Part shown: positions 1-63,523 of the stretch, piece by piece | How positions within the stretch are numbered: the stretch's first letter is position 1 | Layout: the number at the start of each line of letters is the position of its first letter | Source of the DNA: Bacillus sp. ISL-45 | Lineage (GTDB): Bacteria > Bacillota > Bacilli > Bacillales > Cytobacillaceae | Assembly: GCF_018613195.1 (NCBI RefSeq) | Contig: NZ_JAGGQQ010000001.1 | Coordinates: 1 to 64,000, forward strand | Reading direction: 5' to 3' | Length of the DNA: 64,000 nt | Notes under the pieces: generated by a model | Seen by the model: only the letters and a program-made list of their open reading frames with translations | What the model was told of the DNA's origin: nothing | Databases searched by the model: none | Program-made: the position numbers and the translations under genes

Positions 1-345
1 CATTAATATGGACTTGACTTTTCCCGGCACCTGTTTAGGCACTGAAACGAGGTTCCGTTTCCTTTCAAGCTTTCCCGGCACCTGTTTGGGCACTGAAACA
101 AGATTTCCGTTCCCTTTCAAACCTTTCCGGCACCTGTTTGGGCACTGAAACAAGATTTCCGTTCCCTTTTAAGCTTTTCCGGCACCTGTTTTGGGCAATG
201 AAACGAGGTTTCCGTTTCCTTTTAAGCTTCCCGGCACCTGTTTGGGCACTGAAACAAGGTTTCCGTTTCCTTTTAAGCTTTCCCGTTACCTGTTTGGGCA
301 CTAAAATGAGATTTCGGTTACGGTTTAAGCTTCCCCGAGACCCTG
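1..345. repeat. Tandem array of about 51-bp units
   Basis: Six to seven imperfect copies of a unit containing GGCACCTGTTTGGGCACTGA, a purine/pyrimidine-skewed GTTTCCGTTTCC stretch and AAGCTT. Copies begin near 27, 78, 130, 181, 232 and 284. The last ones are more diverged (GTTACCTG). The array runs off the left edge. A reading frame on the minus strand through the array is only the translated repeat. No gene is seen before position 393. Confidence 0.9.
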
Positions 346-392
346 TTTGAGAAGATTCTCCCCCCCATTTGTAATTAAACCCCAATCGGCTA

Positions 393-7477: not shown

Positions 7478-8629
7478 ATGAACGATGCAAGAATCTCAAT
7501 TGTCGGCGGCGGAATCAGCGGGTTAAGCACAGCAATCGCACTGCAAAGAAATGGAATATATGTGGAGGTGTATGAAAAAGAAAAAAATGCACATGAACCT
7601 GATACCGGAATCATCCTAAGCGGCAATGCCATTCGAGCCTTCTATATTATGGGATTGGGACCCGAATTGCGTGCAGGCGGATTAGATGCTGACGGCTGTT
7701 TGCTTAAATCCGATTCGGGCAGTACCATCGCCGAATTCGACTATCACGCACCATCCCATATCCCAAATTACCTGTTCATCCACCGTTCAGAACTTCATAG
7801 AATTTTGACAGATGCACTCCTTCCTGGATCTCTCCACTTTGAAAAGCATATGATTGATTTTAAACACGGTGATGCATTGACATTATTTTTCGAAGATGGC
7901 ACCAGTATAGAATCTGACTATCTTATCAGCTGCGACGGTGCTGCCTCAAAAACTCGGAGAAAACTGTTCCCGAATAGCAGCCTGGTTTATTCAGGTTTCT
8001 CCTGCTGGAGAGGCATCTTGGATGATCCGCCAATACAGGTGCATGACTACACTGAAACATGGGGGGCAAGGGGAAGATTTGGGATTGCCCCGTTAACAGA
8101 TAATCAGGTGTTTTGGTATGCATTGAAAAAATCCTCTACAGAAAACAGCGACATGAGCGAATGGTCCCCTATCGATTTATTGTTCAACTTTTTTTACTAC
8201 CATCAACCAATACAGGAAATACTGGAAAATACTTCCCACGACCAGATCATTTACGATAATTTATATGAATTGCAACCTTTAACACCGATTCATAAAGGTA
8301 ATATCCTATTGCTCGGTGATTCTGCACACGCATCCATGCCCAATATAGGCCAGGGCGCATCACAGGCTGCTGAAGATGCTGTATATCTGGCAAAATGGAT
8401 CAGCATGGAAGAAACAATTGATCAGGCATTTATAAAGTATGAAGTACACAGGCAGGAGCGTATGAAGGTAGTTAAAGACGAAATGAAAATTTATGGGTTG
8501 GCAGCGCGGATTGATTTCCCCGTCCTTTGCTCAATCCGGAACAAATTACTCCAGATGACGCCGGCTGCCTTTCATAACGAGAAGCTGAGGAGGGTGTTTG
8601 AAATAGAAGAAGATATGGATGCATTGTGA
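7478..8629 (+). CDS. FAD-dependent monooxygenase
   Basis: A 383-residue single-component flavoprotein monooxygenase of the PHBH/UbiH superfamily. It has the N-terminal dinucleotide-binding GGGISGLS (residues about 10-17), the mid-protein DG motif CDGAASKTR (about 152-160) and the C-terminal FAD ribityl motif LLGDSAHASMPNIGQGASQA (about 282-301). These families hydroxylate aromatic or urate-like substrates with NAD(P)H and O2. The substrate here cannot be read from sequence. Start ATG 7478 follows GGAGG at 7463-7467. It stands alone, bounded by the mrp terminator and a repeat array. Confidence 0.85.
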   Translation: MNDARISIVGGGISGLSTAIALQRNGIYVEVYEKEKNAHEPDTGIILSGNAIRAFYIMGLGPELRAGGLDADGCLLKSDSGSTIAEFDYHAPSHIPNYLFIHRSELHRILTDALLPGSLHFEKHMIDFKHGDALTLFFEDGTSIESDYLISCDGAASKTRRKLFPNSSLVYSGFSCWRGILDDPPIQVHDYTETWGARGRFGIAPLTDNQVFWYALKKSSTENSDMSEWSPIDLLFNFFYYHQPIQEILENTSHDQIIYDNLYELQPLTPIHKGNILLLGDSAHASMPNIGQGASQAAEDAVYLAKWISMEETIDQAFIKYEVHRQERMKVVKDEMKIYGLAARIDFPVLCSIRNKLLQMTPAAFHNEKLRRVFEIEEDMDAL

Positions 8630-8636
8630 TGGGAAT

Positions 8637-9250
8637 GACTTTTGACAACTTTCCTTGATTTCCTATGAAAGCTGTCTGAACTTGGGCTCACTTCTGACAG
8701 GTTTTCTTTGTTTCCTGTGAAAGCTGTCTGTACTTGGGGTTACTTCTGACAGCTTTTCCTCTTCAAAAACTAAACCTGTCACAATCACGGCTGTTTCTTG
8801 ACAGCTTTTCCTATTCCCACCCCAAACCTGTCAAAATAATCACTTTTTCTTGACAGCTTTTCCCCTTCACGAGCCAAACCTGTCATAATAACGGCTGTTT
8901 CTTGACAGCTTTTCCTCTTTACACCCTAAACTTGTCACAATACCGGTTTCTTGACAGCTTTTCCCCTTCACGAGCCAAACTTGTCATAATAACGGCTGTT
9001 TCTTGACAGCTTTGCTCCTCCCCAAGCCAAACCTGTCACAATAACCTCCTTTTCTTGACAGCTTTTCCCCTTCACGAGTCAAACCTGTCACAATAACCTC
9101 CTTTTCTTGACAGCTTTTCCCCTTCACGAGTCAAACCTGTCACAATTACCCCATTTTCCTGACAGCTTTTCCCTTTCACAAGCCAAACCTGTCACAATAA
9201 CCTCCTTTTCTTGACAGCTTTGCTCCTCCCCAAGCCAAACCTGTCACAAT
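8637..9250. repeat. 12-unit hairpin tandem array (TGACAG/CTGTCA family)
   Basis: About 12 copies of a roughly 51-bp unit with core TTCTTGACAGCTTTTCC, a variable middle, then AAACCTGTCACAATAAC. Within each unit TGACAGcTTT and AAAcCTGTCA are complementary, so each copy can fold as a hairpin with a loop of about 15 bases. Middle segments recur in types, for example CCTTCACGAG and GCTCCTCCCCAAG. The array fills the whole space between two convergent genes. The same unit occurs at 36335-36637 and 57590-57925. Confidence 0.92.
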
Positions 9251-9307
9251 CACCAAGCGATAATCATTTACTTTCTGCACTCTTCCTTTCAAAACCTGAC
9301 CAAATGC

Positions 9308-9331
9308 AAAAACCAGCCAATTTGGCTGGTT
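9308..9331 (-). terminator. Terminator of yuxO
   Basis: AACCAGCC AAT TTGGCTGGTT forms a short-loop stem that is followed on the minus strand by TTTTTGC. It touches the stop codon of the thioesterase gene. Confidence 0.8.
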
Positions 9332-9717
9332 CATTTCCTTCGTTTTATCACGGCGATTGTACATCTTGAAATGCAAACAAGGTTTTCTTCTTCATCGGTG
9401 ATTTTTATATCCCAAACCATTGTTGTTTTTCCTTGGTGGAGGACAGTACCGACAGCTGTTACCAGGCCGTCCTTTTTTGCCTTGATATGGTTTGCGTTGA
9501 TTTCAAGGCCGACCACTACTTCGTTTTCCTTGTCGACTAGTTCGAATGCTCCAACGCTGGCGACCGTCTCTGCAAGTGCGACAGAGGCTCCTCCGTGCAG
9601 CAAACCGAATGGCTGCCTCGTTCGTTCATCGACAGGCATTGTAGCGACTACTTTCCCTTTCTGCAGCTCGGTTATTTCTATTCCCAGTGATCCAAGAAGT
9701 GTGTTGTTAAGTTCCAA
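9331..9717 (-). CDS. yuxO: Hotdog-fold thioesterase, YuxO type
   Basis: A 128-residue hotdog thioesterase of the PaaI/MenI group. The signature RQPFGLLHGGASVALAETVAS (about residues 33-53) carries the conserved His-Gly-Gly and catalytic Glu. Close relatives hydrolyse 1,4-dihydroxy-2-naphthoyl-CoA in menaquinone synthesis, which is the likely role here. The start is set at TTG 9717 because AAGGAGG lies eight bases upstream of it; a longer frame to 9747 would place that site inside the gene. Its position after mrp matches B. subtilis yuxO. Confidence 0.85.
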   Translation of the reverse strand: MELNNTLLGSLGIEITELQKGKVVATMPVDERTRQPFGLLHGGASVALAETVASVGAFELVDKENEVVVGLEINANHIKAKKDGLVTAVGTVLHQGKTTMVWDIKITDEEENLVCISRCTIAVIKRRK

Positions 9718-9820
9718 TCTTATTACCTCCTTATATTTGGCAAACAATTTACTATCAAGAACAGGAAAAACTATTATTGTCCTTCACAAAAGGACGCATC
9801 ATAAAAATGAGGTGATCCAT

Positions 9821-10019: not shown

Positions 10020-10315
10020 CCCGGCATATCATTGCAATGACTGCTTTGTTGGAATGCGGCTTTTGAGCCACCTTTCCAAATGAATACACTCTTCAGGAGG
10101 CGGCTATTTTTGGCTGCCTCTCCTGATGAATACCCTCTTCAGGAAGACGGCTATTTTGGCTGCCTCTCCTGATGAATCCCCCTCATCAGCAGCAGCTATT
10201 TTGGCTGCCTCTCCTGATGAATCCCCCTCATCAGCAGCAGCTATTTTGGCTGTCTCTCCTGAAGAATCCCCTCATCAGCAATCAGCTATTTTGACTGCCT
10301 TTCCTGAAGGATAAC
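10020..10315. repeat. 45-bp tandem array
   Basis: About five copies of a 45-bp unit containing GCTATTTTGGCTGCCTCTCC and TGATGAATCCCCCTCATCAG, the latter a self-complementary CTGATGA...TCATCAG hairpin. The 45-bp period is a multiple of three, so a frame at 10126-10314 reads as a 15-residue repeat. It has no ribosome-binding site and I do not call it a gene. The array ends inside the 3' end of the dedA-like gene. Confidence 0.85.
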
Positions 10316-25974: not shown

Positions 25975-26110
25975 TAAAAATCGAGTAAAATTTCCAATTC
26001 GCTATAAAAATCAAATTTCCGCTATATAATCTTAAAAGTCGCTATAAAAATCATTTTTCCGCTATATAATCTTAAAAGTCGCTATAAAAAGAAGATTTTC
26101 GCTACTTAAA
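25975..26110. repeat. About 40-bp AT-rich tandem array
   Basis: Three to four copies of a unit GTCGCTATAAAAATCATTTT-TCCGCTATATAATCTTAAAA. Internal GCTATA half-units repeat twice per copy. Lies between yutJ and yuzD; several TATAAT-like words occur by composition. Confidence 0.85.
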
Positions 26111-36329: not shown

Positions 36330-36637
36330 AGGATGATCTTGACAGGTTTTCCTGGTTTCCTTTCAAACCTGTCACGATTACGGCTTTTTCTTGACAGCTT
36401 TTACTGCTTTCCTTTCAAACCTGTCACGATTACGGCTTTTTCTTGACAGCTTTTACTGCTTTCCTTTCAAACCTGTCACGATTACGGCTTTTTCTTGACA
36501 GCTTTTCCTCTTTTCCTTTCAAACCTGTCACGATTACGGTTTTTTCTTGACAGCTTTTCCCCTTTTCACACCAAACCTGTCTTAAGTTGGGCTTTCTTTT
36601 GACAGCTTTTCCTCATAACCAGCCATAGCTGTCAGGA
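36330..36637. repeat. Six-unit hairpin tandem array (same family as 8637)
   Basis: About six 51-bp units of TTCTTGACAGCTTTT...TTTCAAACCTGTCACGATTACGGC. Three central copies are almost identical (CTGCTTTCC middle). The last unit ends in a diverged CATAGCTGTCAGG. It lies between divergent genes (EAL protein and glpX), so the family is not limited to gene ends. Confidence 0.92.
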
Positions 36638-36749
36638 TTTGAACTTGCCATGTAAAATGACAAAAAATCCTCTGAAAAATTCAGAAATCGGGATTTTTCT
36701 GGTAAGATTGTTGTTGAGTGAGATGCTGTCGATAATGGAGGAGAATCAT

Positions 36750-37719
36750 TTGGAACGCGAATTGGCACTTGAAATTGTAAGGGTTACGGAGGCTGCTGCG
36801 CTGGCATCTGCACAGTGGATGGGCCGCGGCAAGAAAAATGAAGCGGATGATGCAGCCACAACGGCCATGCGCAGAATGTTCGATTCAGTCAATATGGATG
36901 GGATTGTCGTCATTGGTGAAGGGGAATTGGATGAGGCTCCAATGCTTTATATAGGTGAAAGGCTTGGCACTAGGATGGGCCCAAAAGTCGACATTGCGGT
37001 GGACCCGCTGGAAGGGACGAATATCGTCGCCAAGGGTCATAATAATGCAATGGCCGTAATAGCGGTCGCAGATAAAGGCACCCTTCTTCATGCACCAGAC
37101 ATGTACATGCAAAAAATCGCGGTCGGCAAAAGTGCAGCTGGCAAAATCAGTCTTGATGACCCAATTGAGAAGACGATCGAAATCGTAGCCGAAGCCAACA
37201 ATAAACGAATCCAGGATTTAACGGTCATCATTCAGGAACGTGACCGCCATGATGACCTTATTGAACGTGTCAGGCAAAAAGGCGCCAGAGTGAAGCTGTT
37301 CGGCGATGGCGATGTAGGTGTTGTCGATTGCGACCGCCCTGCCCCATACAGGTGTCGACCTTTTTGTAGGAACAGGCGGTGCGCCTGAGGGAGTCATCTC
37401 GGCGGCAGCCATTAAAGCTCTTGGCGGCGATATGCAGGCAAGGCTAGTTCCGCAGACGATTGAGGAAGAAGAGCGCTGCATCGCAATGGGATTGAAGGAT
37501 CCAAGACAATTGCTGATGCTTGATGACCTTGTTTCCGGAGACGATGCGATTTTTGCTGCGACAGGCGTTTCGAGCGGTGAATTGCTCGACGGAGTTCGCT
37601 TCCTTGGCGGAGATCTTGTTGAAACCCACTCCATTGTTATGCGTTCAAAAACCAAGACAGTCCGTTACATCACAGCACACCATCATCTTGAACATAAGCC
37701 GCATTTAGTGATGGTTTAG
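36750..37719 (+). pseudogene. glpX: Class II fructose-1,6-bisphosphatase with a one-base frameshift
   Basis: Class II (GlpX/YwjI-type) fructose-1,6-bisphosphatase of gluconeogenesis, in two frames. Frame one (TTG 36750 after GGAGGAG) runs [20 protein letters not shown]... through [36 protein letters not shown] and DPLEGTN to FGDGDV at 37316. Frame two resumes at 37318 as [26 protein letters not shown] and continues to the family end at 37719. Dropping one G at 37317-37318 joins both into 322 residues, exactly family length. Everything else is intact, so this is either a recent mutation or a base-call error. Without correction, translation stops at 37388. Confidence 0.88.
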
Positions 37720-45762: not shown

Positions 45763-46012
45763 AAAAAAGGGCAACGATAGAGAACATTCTATCGCTGCCC
45801 TTAATAAGCAACTAGTGTCTCCATCACGATCTGTAGCTCCCCATTATGGATTTATCTCCATAATGACAGTGATACTCTTGTTCAAAGTATCCCCAGCAAT
45901 AAAAAATGTGACTCACTTATTATTGCTTCGGCAAAATTCCCTTTGAGCTGTGATCAACGTTGTCATCCTCACACAGCTTACTCATGAACCCTGCGCCTCT
46001 ACCCCATCGGAA
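45763..46012 (-). ncRNA. Lysine riboswitch (L-box) with terminator
   Basis: Reading the minus strand: GGGGTAGAGGCGCAGG...GAGTAAGC, then GGGAATTTTGCCGAAGCAAT, later TTATTGCTGGGGA, and GGGGAGCTACAGATC near the 3' end. These are the conserved L-box blocks in the right order. A terminator follows (45769-45800, a 13-bp stem GGGCAGCGATAGA/TCTATCGTTGCCC with one G-U, then TTTTTTG), giving lysine-induced termination before the NhaC-family gene. Confidence 0.92.
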
Positions 46013-51194: not shown

Positions 51195-51460
51195 GAGGTG
51201 GATTGTACTAAGAATTGAAACTATTGTACAAGAAATTGATTGATTTGCATCGAAAAGTGAATTTTTTGTACAAGAAATTGATTTTCACCAGGAAGTTGAA
51301 ACTATTGTACAAGAATTTGATTGATTTGCATCGAAAAGTGAAACTACAGCACAAGAAATTGATTGATTTGCATCAAAAGTCGTATTTTATTGTAAAAGTA
51401 TTTGATTGATCTTCACCAAAAGTTGAATCTATTGGACAAGAAATTGATTGATTACACCAA
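51195..51460. repeat. 42-bp AT-rich tandem array
   Basis: About six imperfect copies of TTGTACAAGAAATTGATTGA followed by TTTGCATCGAAAAGTGAAACTA. A 64-codon plus frame (51215-51409) is the translated repeat without a ribosome-binding site. Between yunF and the suf operon. Confidence 0.88.
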
Positions 51461-57584: not shown

Positions 57585-57930
57585 ACTCCTTCTTCTGACA
57601 GCCTATCCCTTTTGGACCCCAAACCTGTCTGAAGTTACCTCGACTTCTGACAGCTTTTCGTCTTTTGGCACCGAACCTGTCTGAACTTCCCCTTACTTCT
57701 GACAGCTTTTTCTCTTTTAGCACCAAACCTGTCACAATAACAGTTTTTTCTTGACAGCTTTTCCCTCTAACACCTCAAACCTGTCACAATAACGGTTTTT
57801 TCTTGACAGCTTTTCGTCCTTACACCTCGAACCTGTCACGATAACGGCTTTTTCTTGACAGCTTTTCGTCCTGACACCTAGAACCTGTCACGATAACTGC
57901 TTGATCTTGACAACTCTTAACCTAACACCT
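57585..57930. repeat. Seven-unit hairpin tandem array (same family as 8637)
   Basis: Seven units of about 49 bp: TTCTTGACAGCTTTTCGTCC...CTCGAACCTGTCACGATAACGG. The first three end CCTGTCTGAA and have CTTCTGACAGC starts, the same variant as the first units at 8.6 kb and likely an older subtype. The last unit is degenerate (GACAACTCTTAACC). Confidence 0.9.
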
Positions 57931-61745: not shown

Positions 61746-61914
61746 AAATAAAAGCCTTCCTGCAAGTGAGCAGAAAGGCATAGTAATAGTGGATTCCTTT
61801 CTCTCATCTGTCAAAGCGATCGCTTTGCGTGAATTGGCACCATTTCAGCAAGCAATGCTTACTGACGGTTGCCGGGCTTCATAGGGCACTTCCCTCCACC
61901 TCTCTTGATAAGAG
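61746..61914 (-). ncRNA. SAM-I riboswitch (S-box) of metNIQ
   Basis: Minus strand: CTCTTATCAAGAGAGGTGGA, GGGAAGTGCCCTATGAAGCC, CGGCAACC, a variable P3-P4 region with AATGGTGCCAATTC, and GATGAGAG closing P1. The terminator is at 61754-61779 (GCCTTTCTGC with GCAGGAAGGC, then TTTTATTTTG). High SAM should terminate transcription. Confidence 0.95.
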
Positions 61915-63378: not shown

Positions 63379-63523
63379 ACAAAAACCCTCTTCCTAAGAA
63401 GAGGGTCATTTATCATCTCTCCTTATCTTTTCAGAGCAAAAACTCTGCTGGAATTAGCACCGTGTTTCACAACCGGTTGCCGGGCTTCATGGGGCCAGTC
63501 CCTCCGCCTCTCTGGATAAGAAT
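63379..63523 (-). ncRNA. SAM-I riboswitch (S-box) of metY
   Basis: Minus strand: TTCTTATCCAGAGAGGCGGA, GGGACTGGCCCCATGAAGCC, CGGCAACC, then a P3-P4 region ending GTGCTAATTCC and GATAAGGAGA closing P1. Terminator at 63385-63406 (ACCCTCTTCT with AGGAAGAGGGT), followed by TTTTTGTTTTTTC. Confidence 0.95.

Follow-up and report, generated by a model that had tools for sequence, protein, structure and literature searches.

The known octamers of the AIMS, KOPS and SpoIIIE systems carry more purines on the leading strand. In the excerpts of each source on which we draw, GAGAAGGG is given as the SpoIIIE recognition octamer of B. subtilis (PMC5869595), AIMS are described as octamers that rise in abundance toward the terminus (PMC5993296), the orientation of IS200/IS605 elements is described as following replication (PMC5371812), REP/RAYT hairpins are said to carry a GT[AG]G guide (GTAG or GTGG) at their foot (PMC6006769), and for the E. 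coli intrastrand triplex motif no strand bias is reported (PMC4666352).

The arrays described here, which we call F1, resemble each of these systems in part. Their orientation, like that of AIMS, KOPS and SpoIIIE sequences, follows the replichore, but they are built of tandem 52-bp palindromic units, are uniform along the arms of the complete related genome G011 and nearly lack the known octamer. As with REP, BIME and REPIN sequences with their RAYT, and with IS200/IS605 ends, they are intergenic, multicopy, imperfect palindromes tied to the lagging-strand template; unlike them, they have no GT[AG]G guide and no consistent Y1 gene, keep a strict tandem pitch and occupy sites shared between species. 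Bacterial minisatellites (VNTR) are likewise tandem and change copy number in place, but F1 is replication-polar, combines conserved arms with free loops and has a pitch that recurs in unrelated units. Bacterial intrastrand triplex repeats, as far as the excerpts of PMC4666352 go, are also intergenic and structure-forming, whereas F1 is strand-biased and has arms that form plain inverted repeats flanking a loop. Our search of the open-access literature, which took in the top entries of long result lists, found no paper on such arrays.

F1 arrays in the window

The window, a stretch of 64,000 nucleotides from Bacillus sp. ISL-45, contains three F1 arrays (Table 1). The original prediction placed about 12 copies of a roughly 51-bp unit at the first of these, array A. 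Cutting at TTGACAGCTTT indeed yields 12 units from 8642, but the pitch is 52 bp (10 of 11 steps, the remaining one being 49 bp). TRF divides the array into two overlapping rows of period 52 (8638-8760, score 176; 8747-9254, score 610) and gives scores of 395 for array B and of 180 and 237 for array C. The same stem had been noticed at 36.3 and 57.6 kb, and the three copies had been said to lie in convergent, divergent and tandem gene contexts; both statements are borne out by the arrays found there.

Table 1. Positions of arrays and neighbouring genes in the window, and of related sites in genome G011
Feature	Position	Strand	Remarks
F1 array A	8642..9262	+	12 units, 52-bp pitch, one step of 49; convergent, FAD-binding (+) / 4HBT thioesterase (-)
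F1 array B	36339..36640	+	6 units; divergent, EAL-domain gene (-) / glpX-like gene (+)
F1 array C	57595..57930	+	6 units and a degenerate 7th; tandem, minus-strand ORFs either side
Left neighbour of array A	7478..8629	+	FAD-binding (PF01494) protein
Right neighbour of array A	9331..9747	-	4HBT thioesterase (PF03061); anchor for orthologous sites
Other 52-bp array, unit TTTCCCGGCACCTGTTTGGG...	20..349		pyrimidine-rich on + like F1, purine 0.39
45-bp array	10080..10307		each unit has two hairpins; plus strand pyrimidine-rich (purine 0.39)
20/40-bp array (CGCTATAAAAATC...)	25999-26104		purine near 0.49 on +
42-bp array (TATTGTACAAGAAATTGATTG...)	51216-51453		purine-rich on + (0.55), opposite to F1
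Orthologous place of array B in G011	4034.5 kb		
Orthologous place of array C in G011	4055.6 kb		
G011 array flanked by lagging-strand genes	446790		not F1
G011 array flanked by lagging-strand genes	954176		
G011 array flanked by lagging-strand genes	1554362		
G011 array flanked by lagging-strand genes	2045107		
G011 array flanked by lagging-strand genes	3636910		
G011 array flanked by lagging-strand genes	3638758		

Each 52-bp unit runs from TTGACAGCTTT through a variable 15-nt loop to AAACCTGTC and ends in a junction. The junction, 18 nt from CTGTC to the next TGACAG, occurs in two types, A (approximately ACAATAACGGCTTTTTCT) and B (approximately TGAACTTGGGCTCACTTC), with type B lying toward array ends (units 1-2 in arrays A and C, unit 5/6 in array B). 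In an alignment of 22 window units the arms, TGACAG..CTGTC together with TTT..AAA, are nearly invariant while the loops vary, which agrees with the earlier description of conserved stems and variable loops. That description had TGACAGcTTT pairing with AAAcCTGTCA, and here it holds for the arms but fails at the position beside TGACAG, which is a conserved C.C mismatch, unpaired in 20 of the 21 distinct window units.

An Rfam search of the window placed no model at any array; the only matches were three riboswitches elsewhere, one for lysine (45826-46009) and two for SAM (61801-61914 and 63420-63522). A plasmid or phage origin of F1 was rejected because none of 72,556 plasmid records and none of 50,697 phage records matches the array A region (8640-9262) at E 1e-5, a set that may omit records close to the genome of the window. 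The glpX-like gene to the right of array B (36639-37719) seems split: a 249-aa ORF covers profile positions 1-188 of 307 and is followed by a second ORF at 37318, and a frameshift or an assembly error is possible.

A family of dozens of loci in one genus

A covariance model built from the window units was used to search for F1 elsewhere. The best window units, themselves part of the model, score E ~1e-16 in the genome, and units at loci that took no part in its construction reach 4e-14 (contig C24) and 7e-14 (contig C3), values that make chance resemblance untenable. The 4.6-Mb genome from which the window comes contains at least 160 unit matches, and G011 at least 33 arrays; each genome search scored up to 150 candidate places (30 or 49 in the large searches), which makes array totals per genome lower bounds. 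Unit matches were grouped into arrays by eye. F1 is a genus-wide family of dozens of loci. The genome search thus confirms the proposed family and enlarges it; array A had been cast as the founder of a family of three loci, a role that does not fit dozens of loci shared between species.

At E 1e-4, matches are present in 18 of the 21 genomes of the genus. With stricter filters and E 1e-6, a family-wide search finds F1 in 17 of 193 genomes, all belonging to one genus among 25, and an order-wide draw finds it in 3 of 120 genomes, again in the same genus alone among 73. A pattern scan of named genomes (at least 80 loci) recovered the units in Mesobacillus boroniphilus, M. selenatarsenatis and Bacillus sp. 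ISL-37, ISL-41 and ISL-55, as well as in records filed as Cytobacillus oceanisediminis 2691 and as Chryseobacterium sp. ISL-80. The genus carrying F1 is most likely Mesobacillus. The label of the Chryseobacterium sp. ISL-80 contigs that bear F1 units (JAGGQZ01; loci L064, L066 and others) is probably wrong.

Orientation follows the replichore

The orientation of F1 follows the replichore. The rule is obeyed by 32 of 33 arrays in G011, 26 of 27 in G007 and 17 of 18 in G020, in each case among the matches listed, and by all 14 arrays among the best 51 matches in G003. Pooled over these four complete genomes, 89 of the 92 listed arrays comply, a total that is not one of independent cases since many of the arrays are the same ancestral sites in several genomes. 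The terminus was located in each genome by a dif-like site; in G020 this site is independent of the arrays, and the origin was taken from the array flip itself. Next to the G003 array at 4.69 Mb the DNA is positively skewed, which implies that the contig start of this genome is not the origin.

The pattern is best illustrated by G011, sampled as 40 stretches, each 20 kb long (25 chosen around arrays, 15 elsewhere), that contain the 33 arrays. The listed units are all on the minus strand between 229 and 2312 kb and all on the plus strand between 2909 and 4777 kb. The sign of GC skew flips from the stretch at 2.50 Mb to that at 2.55 Mb, and the dif-like site is at 2.557 Mb. The single G011 exception, at 2452 kb and hence near dif, reads mostly in the opposite direction with low scores. 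The other exceptions are a lone unit at 525.9 kb in G007 and an array at 2873 kb in G020. At the G011 site (locus L154, 2452.5-2453.3 kb) there is a 15-unit F1-like array that gives low-scoring hits in both directions, most of them contrary to the rule, and it could mark a place where fork direction varies.

Two further sets of loci give the same picture. First, on every contig of the window's own genome with two or more listed arrays, the arrays share one strand, the sole departure being a weak hit on the other strand (C23:180868, E 0.0012). Second, comparison of strand with local 8-kb skew at the 80 named loci gives 73 agreements and 7 disagreements; five of the latter have a skew within 0.014 of zero, and the remaining two (L112 and L118) do not. 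From the observed polarity and standard fork geometry, the purine-rich strand is the lagging-strand template in nearly all F1 arrays. This link to the fork, the decisive property of the family, could not be seen from one window.

Gene strand and base composition do not account for polarity

In the same stretches, genes show a strand bias far weaker than the polarity of the arrays, which is independent of gene strand and stable between species. Within the G011 stretches, 41 arrays with a period of 50-54 or 102-105 bp lie in 14 convergent, 6 divergent and 21 tandem contexts, as judged from crude longest-ORF calls of at least 90 aa. Six of them are flanked on both sides by lagging-strand genes (Table 1), and all six, five of which are F1, still obey the replichore; an explanation by gene strand was therefore rejected.

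Transcription could nevertheless be involved in another way: a C/T-rich RNA made head-on to replication might serve as a loading site for Rho and so stop antisense transcription. Such a role would suit both the lagging-sense composition of F1 (0.27 C, 0.37 T and 0.15 G) and the occurrence of arrays between genes in every context, but the fixed 52-bp pitch and the palindromic arms are left unexplained, and the arms would structure the RNA. We regard this as distinctly improbable.

Base composition was compared over the G011 stretches outside the terminus region (2.44-2.68 Mb), as were the motif counts below. The purine fraction in the leading sense is 0.645 for F1 and 0.628 for other arrays of the same pitch, against 0.522 for other intergenic DNA. 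It exceeds 0.5 in 39 of 40 arrays versus 69% of 193 intergenic stretches of at least 150 bp, and reaches 0.6 in 33 of the 40 versus 3% of those stretches. Leading-sense GC and AT skews are 0.28 and 0.29 in F1, compared with 0.08 and 0.02 in the remaining intergenic DNA. The motif GTCACAATAA, which holds 6 purines in 10 on the lagging sense and so opposes the purine bias of the arrays, is fixed in strand in 47 of 47 cases, all 32 left-arm copies being on plus and all 15 right-arm copies on minus. The shorter GTCACGA is less strictly fixed, with plus-to-minus counts of 16:2 and 0:8 on the two arms. The GTCACAATAA counts, together with the intergenic controls, led us to reject composition alone as the cause of polarity.

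Folding and evolution of the stem

The two strands of F1 differ in predicted folding. When the first window unit is folded as a DNA dimer, the purine strand gives -17.5 kcal/mol (z -5.7) and the complement -6.1 (z -1.1); the corresponding values are -14.8 (z -5.0) and -6.8 (z -1.5) for the second window array, and -11.5 (z -2.6) and -5.2 (z -0.4) for one array of G011. The asymmetry fits the presence of C.C on the pyrimidine strand, and hence G.G on the other, in 121 of 138 array consensi, a set collected in the pyrimidine-rich orientation with a pattern that fixes GACAG, CTGTC and their spacing and drops units with indels, and in which some loci appear twice under different ids. TTT and AAA beside the arms, which the pattern does not demand, are retained while the loops diverge. 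For a second stem across the junction, matched pairs exceed shuffles at several columns (e.g. 107 versus 96.0, sd 2.3), the rows being related to one another. Of 21 units chosen as representative, 17 have one or both strands folding at z -2.6 or below; the four that do not rise clearly above shuffles are those of window 20-349, window 51 kb, G021 212k and G033 507k.

Selection on structure had been suggested, with compensatory changes in the stem as its expected trace. In the 21 distinct window units none of the 10 pairs of the main stem is altered on both sides, so this part of the suggestion gains no support. A main stem that lacks compensatory change and conserves its mismatch also led us to reject a reading of F1 as structured RNA.

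A conserved asymmetric base fits sequence recognition better than hairpin stability, and this brings in a serious rival, even if one we think rather unlikely: that the arrays are bound as duplex DNA by a directional chromosome protein (SMC, a nucleoid protein directed by the fork, or a translocase such as SpoIIIE/SftA), with units on the same face of the helix and a polarity that points a motor to the terminus. The near-strict polarity of F1, a five-turn pitch that recurs in unrelated units and the intergenic spread of arrays over the whole chromosome all speak for this reading. Against it, several unrelated stems in one genome would require several proteins. Clusters of the SpoIIIE octamer were rejected, since GAGAAGGG occurs once in 16,295 array bases, and so were terminus-graded AIMS, since the 35 known G011 arrays, an incomplete set, lie uniformly between ori and dif (KS p 0.75, with 10, 7, 10 and 8 arrays in the four quartiles), without the gradient that defines AIMS.

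Inheritance in place and change of copy number

F1 arrays are inherited in place between two species, with change of copy number. This is supported in two ways. First, all ten arrays of the window's genome that were compared with G011 have an array at the orthologous place, with matches longer than the array itself. Copy number has changed: a site at 11.9 kb of contig C24 has one intact unit, against about 13 at its G011 counterpart. Second, an array lies beside the thioesterase gene in 15 of the 20 genomes that have this gene, 13 being detected by TRF, each with a 52-bp row, and those of G001 and G008 by reading 2-3 units; it is absent from this site in G004, G012, G017, G018 and G019, and in G017 the neighbourhood differs too.

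The unit sequences are nearest to those of the orthologous G011 array for five of eight arrays (8.6 kb and 36 kb of the window, C24:42k, C26:10k and C12:297k). For the other three (57 kb, C3:229k and C17:46k) they are not, and some exchange between loci is thus possible. Copying of whole units, the other half of the earlier suggestion, is upheld within a locus by the difference between one and about 13 units.

Changing copy number at orthologous sites, and unit sequences nearest to the same locus in those five cases, are what ordinary slippage minisatellites would show, with a mutational strand bias supplying purine-rich DNA in the leading sense. Yet array skews lie far above those of other intergenic DNA, GTCACAATAA is fixed in strand, TTT and AAA beside the arms are maintained despite loop divergence, and a pitch of 51-54 bp is common to unrelated arrays. 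We hold the minisatellite reading to be very improbable, and the original view that more than simple slippage is needed is supported.

Recent mobility was sought at the ten sites compared with G011 and none was found, a result compatible with older insertion. The arrays might be relics of single-strand transposition, in which a REP/RAYT- or IS200/IS605-like Y1 transposase inserted hairpins in the lagging-strand template and tandem amplification followed. The many dispersed palindromic copies suit this idea, as does the orientation of IS200/IS605 elements with replication, described in the excerpts of PMC5371812. Strong matches to IS200-like transposases, a control for lagging-template insertion, obey the same rule, being on the leading strand in 6 of 6 cases in G007 and 3 of 3 in G005 (a count that excludes four copies of the draft genome G004). 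A RAYT or Y1 transposase was, however, rejected as the driver because its presence and absence do not match those of the arrays: two of the 18 F1-bearing genomes (G016 and G020, each with about 150 unit matches) have no Y1_Tnp (PF01797) match, and two of the three genomes without F1 matches do have one. Moreover, the GT[AG]G guide expected at the hairpin foot, as defined in the excerpts of PMC6006769, is missing from the unit consensus as read by eye, and the sites common to two species show no recent movement. We consider such an origin improbable.

A proposed replication-polar element

We give about an even chance to the reading that F1 arrays are cis-acting, replication-polar DNA elements whose function or generation depends on fork direction, and which are made or read on the lagging-strand template. 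In nearly every array that template is the strand reading GACAGGTTT, a purine-rich loop and AAAGCTGTC in the leading sense. Transiently single-stranded behind the fork, it could form successive hairpins, one in every 52 bp, and the complementary strand is predicted to do so poorly in the window units, consistent with its conserved C.C mismatch. A pitch of 52 bp is close to five helical turns, so that each unit would show the same face in duplex DNA. Their seeding at many intergenic places may go back to an ancestor within the genus, after which the arrays would have been inherited in place, with units gained and lost inside them while arms, pitch and polarity were retained. Both the formation of hairpins at the fork and their being read or made there by a protein or by the replication machinery are inferred from these features.

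An element made or read on a single-stranded purine strand would account for gene-independent polarity, for the single foldable strand of F1 and for the same rule among IS200-like matches. Reading on the lagging template does not by itself yield the 52-bp pitch. The five-turn spacing hints at a protein that contacts the duplex from one side, and conservation of the mismatch hints at sequence recognition. If the arrays are functional, they offer direct access to the way in which noncoding DNA encodes fork direction or lets it be read; if they are a by-product, they point to a replication-coupled route to palindromic arrays of fixed pitch.

Other arrays of similar pitch

F1 is accompanied by arrays of similar pitch and unrelated sequence. 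TRF finds units of 51-54 bp in G011 with other palindromic stems, among them CCGATAG..CTATCGG, ATAGACATTT..AAATGTCTAT, GTACCCTTAT..ATAAGGGTAC and TGACGGACA..TGTCCGTCA. Among arrays of at least 120 bp, a period of 51-54 bp or its double is found in 6 of the 7 from 300 kb of G011 (the 15 non-targeted stretches), 3 of 11 in 600 kb of G021 (another genus), 2 of 4 in 600 kb of G033 (a third genus) and 2 of 2, both in G018, in 220 kb of G012, G018 and G019 together; 160 kb of G031 contain no arrays of this length of any period. In the window, the array at 20-349 folds no better than shuffles (z +1.8 and +1.3).

Polarity extends to many of these arrays. All five from G021 and G033 lean toward purine in the leading sense (0.62, 0.53, 0.68 and 0.65, and 0.47 on a minus-skew arm), two of them slightly, and in G018 one of the two same-pitch arrays, of a non-F1 family, opposes the rule (purine 0.38 at skew +0.07). 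In most other same-pitch families the palindromes are nearly perfect and the two strands fold about equally well, an exception being G011 3118k. As these symmetric families mostly share the purine polarity, hairpin asymmetry alone is insufficient to explain it.

It is possible, and we put it forward tentatively, that the tandem 51-54-bp arrays, with their five-turn pitch and many unrelated, mostly palindromic units, make up a general and so far undescribed kind of chromosome element shared by these Bacillaceae-like genera. In it the purine-rich strand would be the lagging template, and sequence would be free while architecture and polarity are fixed. The chromosome would then carry fork direction as a structural code, one that is written or read where the lagging template is single-stranded. 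This reading is attractive, and outside the genus it draws on few arrays, five of 51-54-bp pitch that each have four copies or more. In G012, a genome without F1 matches, contig C98 (locus L220) has a region with many 21/42-bp repeats (CATAATCTCCCGAT...), corresponding to two and four helical turns.
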